Below are positions 21,179 through 30,652 of a DNA stretch of 64,000 bases, piece by piece; the stretch's first letter is position 1; the number at the start of each line of letters is the position of its first letter. The stretch comes from Spirochaetota bacterium (GTDB taxonomy: Bacteria; Spirochaetota; UBA4802; UBA5550), in contig JAFGJX010000086.1 of NCBI GenBank assembly GCA_016928865.1, forward strand, positions 1 to 64,000, read 5' to 3'. A program made the position numbers and the translations under genes. The notes beneath the pieces were generated by a model. That model saw only the letters and a list, made by a program, of their open reading frames with translations, was not told the origin of the DNA and did not search any database.

Positions 21179-22150
21179 TTATCTCCGGGCGCTGCCGCGG
21201 GGCCTGATCTCTTCCTTTATGCCTGCCTTCCTGAGACGGTACTGTATGTCCTCCAGCAGGGTGCGGTTGACCGCCATGAGATCCACAATGAACGCGGCCA
21301 GTATCGACTGGAAGCCCATCAGCATAAGTATGCTGGCGAGTATCAGGGACTGGATGTGGCCCTGACCGGCCCCGGTGAAATAATAATAGAGGAAGCGGGC
21401 GCATATGATCAGGCCGACCAGGAAAAGGAACCCGCCGATTCGTATAAAGAACCTGAATGGCTCGTATACCACGAAAATCCTGAAAATGGTGACGATGGAG
21501 CGCTTGATGTAGCTCGGGATACTCTTCACCAGCCGCGATGGCCGAAGGTCCTCGTTGACGCGGACCGGCACCCAGGTGATGGCCATGTTCTTCCGGCCCG
21601 CCTGTATGATGGTTTCCAGCGTGTAGGTGTACGCGTTGAAGACGTTCAGCTTCAGGGCCGCGTCCCTGCTGAAGGCGCGGAAGCCGCTTGGCGCGTCAGG
21701 AATGTCCGTGGAGCTGAAGCGCCGCACCACGTAGCTGCCGAGTTTTTGGAGAAGCTTCTTCACTATGGAAAAATGCTTTATCTGGACGATGGGACGCGCG
21801 CCGATCACGATGTCCGCTTTCCCGTCGAGAATCGGCTGGATGAGCTTCGGGATGTCGCCGGCGTGATACTGGTTGTCCGCGTCCGTGTTCACGATGATAT
21901 CGGCGCCCAGGGAAACGCAAGCGTCTATGCCCGCCTTGAAGCCCTCCGCGAGGCCCTTGTTTTTTTTGAAGCGGACGACATGGTCGACGCCATGCTTTTT
22001 CGCGACGTCCACCGTGTTGTCCTGGCTCCCGTCGTCGATGATGAGCCACTCAATTTTGTCAATGCCGGTGAGCCTGCGCGGGAGCTCGCGGAGCGCTACG
22101 GGAAGCGTCTTTTCTTCATTATAGCAGGGGATCTGGATGATCAGCTTCAT
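21179..22150 (-). CDS. GT2 glycosyltransferase (polyprenyl-phosphate sugar synthase-like)
   Basis: 323 residues. The N-terminal GT-A domain has KLIIQIPCYNEEKTLPVALR, the aspartates WLIIDDGSQDNTVD and NTDADNQYHAGDIPKLI with its DxD motif. Two C-terminal hydrophobic helices (RFFIRIGGFLFLVGLIICAR and SLILASILMLMGFQSILAAF) anchor it. This is the layout of dolichyl/undecaprenyl-phosphate mannose or glucose synthases, which charge a polyprenyl carrier used by GT39-type transferases such as those at 11022 and 22458. The match between these enzymes supports one pathway. It is cotranscribed with the YbhN gene. Confidence 0.87.
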   Translation of the reverse strand: MKLIIQIPCYNEEKTLPVALRELPRRLTGIDKIEWLIIDDGSQDNTVDVAKKHGVDHVVRFKKNKGLAEGFKAGIDACVSLGADIIVNTDADNQYHAGDIPKLIQPILDGKADIVIGARPIVQIKHFSIVKKLLQKLGSYVVRRFSSTDIPDAPSGFRAFSRDAALKLNVFNAYTYTLETIIQAGRKNMAITWVPVRVNEDLRPSRLVKSIPSYIKRSIVTIFRIFVVYEPFRFFIRIGGFLFLVGLIICARFLYYYFTGAGQGHIQSLILASILMLMGFQSILAAFIVDLMAVNRTLLEDIQYRLRKAGIKEEIRPRGSARR

Positions 22151-22288
22151 CTGCGTACCTCTGGGTCATGGATGCGGCATTGACAAACCGGTTTCTCTCT
22201 GTGCCGGGTATTATCCGGCACGGGGCGGAATTGTTCAAGTGAATTTCAGCATATAATTTTTTATTTACTAAAATTACATTTTATCGAA

Positions 22289-22443
22289 GGGCGGGAGGCA
22301 TCCCGGCGAGCAGGCGACAGGACGTCGCCGTTTCCGCCGAGTCAACATGAGCGCTGGCCAGGATGGCCGAGTGCAGAGCCGGAACAGGATGTTCCAGCAG
22401 GCTCTGCTCTATACGAGGCGGACGAGCGGGATGCCTCCCGCCC
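22289..22443. repeat. Element with three CAGGA-loop hairpins inside a 17-bp inverted repeat
   Basis: The ends are a perfect 17-base inverted repeat: GGGCGGGAGGCATCCCG (22289-22305) and its complement (22427-22443). Between them lie three short hairpins that all show the same loop: GGCGACAGGACGTCGCC (22313-22329), GGCCAGGATGGCC (about 22356-22368) and GGAACAGGATGTTCC (22381-22395), the last framed by AGAGCC/GGCTCT. The loop matches the core (AGGA in a hairpin loop) bound by CsrA/RsmA proteins. A related element is at 30447. It fills the 307-base gap between the GT39 and GT2 genes. A dispersed repeat or a CsrA-binding RNA are both possible. Confidence 0.75.
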
Positions 22444-22457
22444 TGTTCGTTGACGAA

Positions 22458-24164
22458 TCATGGAACAAACCGGTACAGGTAGCTCGTAATGCCGCCTTTT
22501 GTGTGAAATGTCCTGAGCAGGATGAAGTGGCCGCTCTGAACGCCCCTGTCGCGTATCTCCCTGAATACCCAGGCCCGCCGGTCTATGGCGTTCGGGTCTT
22601 TTATCGGGAGGCGCCTGATGTAGAAGTCGTCGACGAAGACGTGTGTTACCTTCATCGCCCTGAGCTCGGGCACAATCTCTTCGATGGTCCTTCCCTTGAT
22701 GAAGAAGGAGACGGCAAAGCGCTCGGGCCCGAAGCCCGAGTAGTACATGGGTACGTTTGTCTCGGAGATCAGCATCCTGTCGCCGGGCCCGGCGTTCTCC
22801 CTGTACCAGAGCGCCGCCTGCTTGAACTCCACCCGCGAAAGGCCGTGGTGGTCGAGCGCGCGCACCCCGTAATATACCGAAAGGTTGATGAGCACGCCGC
22901 ACGTCAGCGCCAGAAGCGCGGCGCCGCCGAATCGTTTTTTATCGCCGTTCCCGTATATTGCAACCGTCGCGATCAAGGCGGTGAAGACGAGGGCGAAAAA
23001 CGCGTGCGCAGGCGTCGCGTCAATGATGATGGCCGCCATGGTCGCAGCGTACAGTGCGGTTGCGGCAGCCCAGATAATGACGGTTACGGCGCCGCGCGCT
23101 CCCTGCTTCATCCGGCCGCATATTCCCGAGAGCCACGGCATCATACCCCCGGTGATGCCGGTTATGAGAAACAGGTTCAGTATCCAGAGGATCGGCATGA
23201 CATACCGGTCCTTGGTGTTCTGATAGATCAGGTGTATGAGGAGGAACCCGGCAAAGAAGATAAATACCGGAGCGAACTCCCTGCGCTGCTTTTTCCATAT
23301 CAGAACGGCGCCCCAGGGGATGCCGGTTACGACGATGATCCCGGGTATGGCCAGGAACGCCAGCATGGCTGTCTTCAGCAGCGTGTTTTCCATGTACCAC
23401 GCGTGGCCGGCCATCCACTGGATGAAGCTGCCCGCGACCAGGAAACAGTCGATGAGATAGCGGTAGATATTGGGGCCCCGGTGCGCGATTTCTGCCACAT
23501 AGGGATGTCCCCGGGTGGTGATGAAGCTGAGCAGCAGCCATGTGACAGCGCCGGCGGACGCCATCGTGCCGAGCACGATGGCGAGCATCTTCCTCCTATT
23601 GTAAAAAAAGTCCCTGAACATCACTGCCGGCACGATGAAGACCGAGTCCCACTTGGTGAAGGCGGTGAGGAATGCTGTCGCATATGACAGCTTTGAGTCA
23701 CGCGCCGCGAGATACAGGGACAGGATGATCAATGTGGTCAGCGTCATCTCGAGCTCGGCGTTGACCGCCATGTATACGGTATAGATATTGGTGCCGAGGA
23801 ATATGAGGGCGGCCCAGGCCGCCCTGTCAGAAAGGTACTTGCGGTAGGTAAGGAACGCAAGGAAGAGATAGGGGACCAGCAGGGTCATGTTGAGTATCAT
23901 CGCGGTCAGATAGACCGGATCTTCCGCGGGCAGGGGATTTATCCGCGTCAGCGCCGAGAGGACGAGCGGAAAGAAGGGGAGGAATTTGAAGTTCTTTCCC
24001 GGAAAATCGCCCTGCATGTACTGCAATACCGGCACCCTGATGTTACCGATATAATCGCCGGAAGGTGTTTCAAAATAATTGAAGTAGAACACGCCGTACC
24101 CGATGGAAACAAGGAGGATCAGCGCGGGGATAACCACCCGCAGGGGAGCATCTTTGATTTTCAT
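22458..24164 (-). CDS. GT39-like membrane glycosyltransferase
   Basis: 568 residues from ATG 24164, which has GAGGA nine bases upstream; the frame stays open to 24239, but that extension lacks a start signal. About 11-12 membrane segments begin with RVVIPALILLVSIGYGVFYF. Early loop residues (TPSGDYIGNIRVPVLQYMQG) occupy the place where GT39/GT83 enzymes carry acidic catalytic residues, here D rather than the usual DE pair. A soluble C-terminal domain follows (WYRENAGPGDRMLISETNVP). It probably uses a polyprenyl-phosphate sugar, in line with the GT2 gene downstream; the weak motif makes this less sure than for the 11022 protein. Confidence 0.75.
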   Translation of the reverse strand: MKIKDAPLRVVIPALILLVSIGYGVFYFNYFETPSGDYIGNIRVPVLQYMQGDFPGKNFKFLPFFPLVLSALTRINPLPAEDPVYLTAMILNMTLLVPYLFLAFLTYRKYLSDRAAWAALIFLGTNIYTVYMAVNAELEMTLTTLIILSLYLAARDSKLSYATAFLTAFTKWDSVFIVPAVMFRDFFYNRRKMLAIVLGTMASAGAVTWLLLSFITTRGHPYVAEIAHRGPNIYRYLIDCFLVAGSFIQWMAGHAWYMENTLLKTAMLAFLAIPGIIVVTGIPWGAVLIWKKQRREFAPVFIFFAGFLLIHLIYQNTKDRYVMPILWILNLFLITGITGGMMPWLSGICGRMKQGARGAVTVIIWAAATALYAATMAAIIIDATPAHAFFALVFTALIATVAIYGNGDKKRFGGAALLALTCGVLINLSVYYGVRALDHHGLSRVEFKQAALWYRENAGPGDRMLISETNVPMYYSGFGPERFAVSFFIKGRTIEEIVPELRAMKVTHVFVDDFYIRRLPIKDPNAIDRRAWVFREIRDRGVQSGHFILLRTFHTKGGITSYLYRFVP

Positions 24165-24257
24165 TCCGGGGTCCTCTGTCGCCTGTCGATTTTTACGTCT
24201 GATGCGGATGAATATAGAAATGAATGGACAACATGTCAAGATACTTCTTGCACGGAA

Positions 24258-30245: not shown

Positions 30246-30446
30246 AATTGTCTCTGATTTTAATGGTTCGGCATCATGAATCAGTTCAGGACACCGGTAT
30301 AATCGAGCAATTAATACATATATTTGCTGCAGTGTCTATAATAATTTTTCCCTCAAAGCCATTTTATCAAAATAAGCGATCAGTGTATTAGCCAAAATGA
30401 TATCAACATCCTTGTCCTTGACAATCATTGAAAGCAACATTCAAAA

Positions 30447-30652
30447 TCGCGCTGGCCAGGGATGGCCGAGTGCCGCGAAGGACAGGACATCCGAGAGCGG
30501 CCTTCGCTCCGCTCGCGATGACATAAAAGAAAATAAGACTTTTTGGACACCCCCTTCATTTCCCTTCGCTTTACTCTGGGAAATGGCGGTACTTCCTGTA
30601 CGGATTAGATTGCATCCCGGGCTTTTGGATGCAATCTAATTATTTTTTATTC
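30447..30652 (+). ncRNA. Candidate CsrA-sponge-like small RNA
   Basis: A TTGACA at 30418-30423 lies about 25 bases upstream (a matching -10 is weak, TTCAAA). The region begins with GGCCAGGGATGGCC and GGACAGGACATCC hairpins, the same CAGGA-in-loop design and the same flanking words (GCGCTGGCCAGG, GGCCGAGTGC) as the 22289 element. ATCGCG/CGCGAT frames this part. CATTTCCC...GGGAAATG follows, then a terminator at 30604. It carries about seven GGA motifs, as in CsrB-like RNAs. Transcription is inferred. Confidence 0.5.
30604..30652 (+). terminator. Strong intrinsic terminator with no gene before it
   Basis: ATTAGATTGCATCC (30604-30617) pairs perfectly with GGATGCAATCTAAT (30627-30640), a 14-pair stem with a 9-base loop, then TATTTTTTATT. 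The nearest plus-strand gene upstream ends at 29367 behind its own terminator, so this one should end a short RNA. Confidence 0.8.

Follow-up and report, generated by a model that had tools for sequence, protein, structure and literature searches.

A GGA-loop hairpin element of Spirochaetota as a predicted CsrA-binding RNA module on a mobile repeat

At positions 22289-22443 of the 64,000-nt stretch of Spirochaetota DNA analysed here (the window), a perfect inverted repeat encloses hairpins that display one loop motif on different stems. Is this a regulatory RNA, a mobile repeat or both? A first-pass annotation had taken the recurrence of one loop on several stems as a sign of selection on the loop, perhaps for binding the RNA-binding protein CsrA, and the inverted repeat as the mark of a single folded unit or of a mobile repeat; further copies in the genome, a csrA gene and stems that co-vary around constant loops were what it proposed to look for. 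Its account of the locus itself, a 17-bp inverted repeat and three CAGGA hairpin loops, proved exact to the base. The 5' arm of the outer stem, GGGCGGGAGGCATCCCG (22289-22305), is the perfect reverse complement of the 3' arm (22427-22443), and CAGGA occurs three times in the 155-base element, every time within a hairpin loop. On the + strand, hairpin 1 (GGCGACAGGACGTCGCC, 22313-22329; GGCGAC-AGGA-CGTCGCC) is followed by a hairpin-2 arm (22333-22422), whose base stem pairs TCCGCC (22333-22338) with GGCGGA (22417-22422) and adjoins a tandem G·A motif, CGAG (22338-22341) with its partner CGAG (22414-22417). This arm contains two further hairpins with CsrA-type loops, A (GGCCAGGATGGCC, 22356-22368; GGCC-AGGAT-GGCC, with a stem of 4 bp) and B (GGAACAGGATGTTCC, 22381-22395; GGAAC-AGGA-TGTTCC), the latter sitting on a longer stem (22373-22380 with 22400-22407). 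Beyond what had been listed before, the outer stem bears a three-way junction.

As RNA, the + strand of the element folds at -98.2 kcal/mol (z = -7.0), and none of 200 shuffles folds equally well. The reverse strand is almost equally stable (z = -7.6), so stability alone cannot assign the strand. None of 5000 shuffled elements contained three CAGGA hairpins, in a test that requires 5-bp stems and detects only two of the three real ones because the stem of the GGCC hairpin is 4 bp long. Two other candidates were rejected by eye, a Rho-independent terminator (a T-run after the stem is absent on both strands) and an integron attC site.

A DNA search of the host genome recovered further copies with the same ends and a different middle. 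In compact copies, about 100 nt long, the outer stem is variable and encloses hairpin 1 (GGCGAC-A(N)GGA-GTCGCC) together with hairpin 2 (CCGCCGAGTCAAC-AGGA-GTTATACGAGGCGG). The window copy is an expanded form, in which the extra module of hairpins A and B replaces the hairpin-2 loop; compact copies have the single loop GTCAAC-AGGA-GTTATAC there. Covariance models were built from eight compact copies (R1) and from 99 copies (R2), and the whole window element scores 84.1 and 84.8 bits with them. R1 finds about 16 copies, of which the weakest (E = 0.7) is marginal, in the 3.8-Mb host genome, and 5, 19, 35, 8 and 0 copies in five other species of the genus; the host counts derive from genome searches. 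Some R1 copies lie in other families of the order. With R2, the element is present in 16 of the 392 Spirochaetota genomes searched, a lower bound given strict filters and the few candidates scored per genome, and the named relatives that carry it are uncultured Spirochaetes MAGs, for example RBG_13_51_14. Searches of IMG/VR, phages and plasmids returned no element. A weak copy (26.4 bits) occurs in an Alphaproteobacteria MAG, on the short contig JAJEAZ010000156.1 (L156, 1311-1447), through either horizontal transfer or mis-binning.

Other variants of the family were seen in passing. Copies at L148 (2991-3144), L149 (1110-1265) and L127 (2794-2949) represent another expanded form, with a long nested insertion in hairpin 1 and not in hairpin 2, and at L123, L124 and L117 the hairpin-2 loop gives way to a stem that lacks GGA, of the ATCCCGAT...TCGGGAT type. 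A second, separate repeat lies at 30430-30557 of the window, with copies elsewhere in the host genome (G000:C62:26280-26407, 84% identical, and C60:12744-12792); it has the hairpin GCGCTGGCCAGG(G)ATGGCCGAGTGC in common with the inserted module of the element (22351-22389), and GGA-type loops are present in it, but it folds no better than shuffles.

The host genome encodes one CsrA (85 aa; 88.7 bits), its gene lying directly after fliW. The protein carries L4 and R44, two residues known to contact RNA in E. coli CsrA. Among 21 genomes checked, csrA is present in 20, the exception (G201) being 78% complete. It is also present in genomes free of the element, such as G002, and the element occurs in only a small fraction of the Spirochaetota genomes, so Csr control can do without the element. 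Leptospira has been noted to lack homologues of csrB/csrC, with FliW as a possible antagonist (PMC8668096).

The stems do co-vary around constant loops. At 14 of 16 outer pairs both sides have changed, and the GGA of the loops is kept. Standard pairs fill 94.7% of pair cells in the alignment of eight copies, whereas every slid control drops to 37-46% paired. Across the family the outer stem, 16 bp long, varies between copies yet remains paired; most of its positions show all four Watson-Crick pairs among the 99 copies, and at a site common to three species (L081, L114 and L141) the outer stems are widely different and still pair. Template-switch repair could likewise turn imperfect palindromes into perfect stems, so pairing by itself is no proof of RNA function. 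The folded strand is probably the + strand, an assignment supported statistically because the non-standard pairs of the outer stem, read on that strand, are mostly G·U (G·T), 57 against 17 A·C (binomial p = 3e-6; the count omits the innermost, mostly unpaired position, and the p-value overstates independence, the copies being related and the aligning model having been built for the + strand). The CGAG/CGAG tandem G·A motif, which is meaningful on the + strand only, recurs in most copies.

Hairpin 1 is conserved over the 99 copies. GGA is retained in 91 of 95 short hairpin-1 loops and in 70 of 79 short hairpin-2 loops, and has been lost in some hairpin-2 arms. Most loops keep the CsrA consensus C-A-(N)-G-G-A. 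Those seen most often are ACAUGGAUGU, ACACGGAUGU and ACAGGAUGU; the first two, the most frequent in hairpin 1, are close to the CsrA SELEX consensus RUACARGGAUGU, where GGA lies within a hairpin loop (PMC7652899). CsrA dimers span two sites separated by 10-63 nt (PMC7652899), and in compact copies about 30 nt separate the GGA of hairpin 1 from that of hairpin 2. The window copy has three CsrA-type GGA loops and most copies have 2-4. Conservation of GGA on co-varying stems agrees with the earlier suggestion of selection on the loop.

The nearest described relative is TwoAYGGAY (RF01731), a predicted CsrA-binding small RNA that contains tandem GA and whose outer stem is poorly conserved (Gardner and Eldai, PMC4333381), which was described from human gut metagenomes, gamma-proteobacteria and Clostridiales (Weinberg 2010, PMC2864571). 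Both have two A-Y-GGA-Y loop hairpins on a long, poorly conserved outer stem and a tandem G·A motif in a stem. Two copies exceed the Rfam threshold of 43 bits, one in genome G033 (C20:4255-4390, 49.4 bits) and one in the host (G000:C98:114970-115104, 43.7 bits), and both coincide with places found by R1 and R2. Most copies, that of the window included, fall below it, and the spirochaete copies further differ from TwoAYGGAY in their phylum, in numbering up to 35 per genome, in lying on mobile repeats and in having expanded forms with extra hairpins. At gathering thresholds, Rfam gave no match over the entire window; within the TwoAYGGAY clan (CL00106), the sole match of the window copy is to CsrB (RF00018), at 14.1 bits against a threshold of 71. 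The sponge RNAs CsrB and RsmZ likewise display repeated CAGGA hairpin loops. They are encoded by one or two longer genes, whereas the element is dispersed in many copies, each with only 2-4 loops in one closed three-way junction and without a known promoter.

On balance, the element is probably a predicted CsrA-binding RNA module of the TwoAYGGAY type that has spread as a MITE-like repeat, and the idea put forward at first reading is supported in kind. The + strand would fold into an outer stem with two hairpins, or three as here, each loop presenting a C-A-(N)-G-G-A site for CsrA, and the spacing of the loops would let one CsrA dimer clamp two of them. If the element is transcribed, as we infer, it would titrate CsrA by binding it, in the manner of a small CsrB; alternatively, it would flag the transcript in which it lies as a target of CsrA. 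Several results weigh against this reading: in most tandem contexts the neighbouring genes would be read on the other strand, no sigma70-like promoter into the folded strand emerged, the window copy stays below the TwoAYGGAY threshold, the element is rare in the phylum and csrA also occurs without it, and some hairpin-2 arms no longer have GGA.

The mobile side of this reading comes from relatives. In genome G004, 13 copies lie between GGTAGCAGT terminal inverted repeats flanked by 9-bp direct repeats; flank identity at length 9 reaches 0.607, compared with 0.289 after shuffling (0.41 at most in 200 shuffles), and the excess at lengths 10-11 is small. In G033 and G020, which represent two other families, copies occupy a unit of constant length, about 175 bp, with AGAGCCTATTTCAGTAGG ends, and most places with such ends contain the element. 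No clear target duplication could be discerned around these units, and none is visible at the window copy. The window locus is empty in G001 and G005, where the two flanking genes are direct neighbours and no element separates them, and only three sites are common to species of the genus. No autonomous transposon with the same ends was found; beside the few end matches that do not contain the element there is no obvious transposase ORF (by eye), and two of these matches are near contig ends. Judged from these insertions, the family is mobile in relatives, and both early ideas about the inverted repeat hold, as it encloses one fold and belongs to a moving family.

Bacterial MITEs with transcribed hairpins include the Correia/NEMIS, ERIC and REP elements. 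Like them, the element is a short, dispersed, intergenic inverted repeat with terminal repeats and target duplications and without a transposase of its own; it differs in an interior that is a conserved multi-hairpin module with CsrA-type sites, and in an outer stem that varies and co-varies between copies. It could still be a MITE at the DNA level alone, with inverted repeats and hairpins that serve transposition or form cruciforms and GGA loops that are incidental or bind the transposase. The terminal repeats and 9-bp duplications of G004, the fixed unit of G033 and G020, the intergenic and oriented placement about 50 nt from promoters and the failure to find a promoter into the element all sit well with this account. 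It is nevertheless unlikely, since the internal hairpins keep the CsrA consensus and vary where CsrA tolerates variation, the wobble is strand-asymmetric, the tandem G·A motifs are conserved, one internal module occurs within two different sets of terminal repeats and the family matches an RNA described from other phyla.

The placement of the copies raises a further alternative. Only one of the 99 copies overlaps a called gene (the calls came from a simple codon-usage script, and starts are approximate). The window copy lies between two genes on the minus strand: gene X, a family-2 glycosyltransferase (21179-22150), and gene R, a 593-aa protein without a Pfam match (22458-24239), whose stop codon is 14 nt from the element. 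The likely promoter of gene X (TTGAAC, 22233-22238; GATAAT, 22210-22215; minus strand) is 50 nt from the element and is conserved in G001, whose locus has no element. Across the copies, 74 of 93 left neighbours point away from the element in their transcription (p = 8e-9), and the right neighbour is unbiased. Tandem contexts divide 40 to 12; in 40 of 52, transcription of the flanking genes would proceed along the opposite strand, which reads UCC where the + strand has GGA. The -35 boxes of outward promoters are concentrated at 45-64 nt from the element's edge (34 of 70 hits in about 125 nt). From this pattern we infer either that insertion is oriented and directed to sites upstream of promoters, or that such an orientation is selected for. 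A transcript running divergently from the neighbouring promoter would in that case cover the + strand; no promoter signal supports this, as sigma70-like promoters into the folded strand showed no consistent excess over shuffles. A TATAAT in the left terminal repeat of G004 was rejected as a promoter by eye, there being no -35 at the right spacing.

The same orientation bias and clustering of -35 boxes would be expected if the element served the opposite-strand gene X in cis, as a terminator, an attenuator or an upstream promoter element, and such a role would explain its position, in one orientation, about 50 nt upstream of the -35 box. We regard this as improbable. With a promoter situated between it and gene X, the element is not part of the X leader; the T-run of a terminator is missing, the wobble asymmetry favours the other strand and species free of the element retain the X promoter.

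Two recurrent neighbourhoods may be recorded here. A malQ-like gene (4-alpha-glucanotransferase, named from its first residues only) stands beside the element at L150 (G000:C24), L121 (G003:C78) and L127 8989-9089 (G005:C6); this is one of the three shared sites, and the G005 element has the opposite orientation. In E. coli, glycogen metabolism is among the classic targets of CsrA. At L146, L082 and L125, in three species of the genus, elements lie between the genes for tRNA-Pro(TGG) and tRNA-Arg(TCT).

In DNA hairpins, too, G·T wobbles and sheared G·A pairs are stable. A functional single-stranded DNA fold, of the kind used by IS200/IS605 or attC and with the + strand recognised by a recombinase, would draw on that stability, on the long perfect stems and on a wobble asymmetry that fits a folded single DNA strand equally well, but it is very improbable given that GC skew reveals no bias to either replication strand (42 vs 57, p = 0.16), that the 9-bp target duplications suggest a transposase acting on double-stranded ends and that the loops follow the CsrA consensus.

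The prediction that TwoAYGGAY is a CsrA RNA dates from 2014, and we found no test of it in the literature. The family is known in kind; its copy number in spirochaetes, its expanded forms and its mobility were not found described. With up to 35 copies per genome, consensus loops, stem co-variation and a strand test, the spirochaete elements make a strong comparative case for the TwoAYGGAY prediction, which one protein and one 155-nt RNA would be enough to test directly. To our knowledge, Gammaproteobacteria are the only group in which CsrA antagonists of the CsrB type are well established, FliW being the presumed antagonist elsewhere. A bolder and less probable reading is that these are CsrA-decoy RNAs multiplying as transposable elements, whose oriented insertions some 50 nt upstream of promoters add sites and shift the Csr set point. 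Should that be true, the added CsrA sites would be transcribed away from the promoter, and transposition would alter the global Csr set point of the cell. What the element family adds is that predicted CsrA-binding RNAs can, as far as these genomes indicate, spread as mobile elements.
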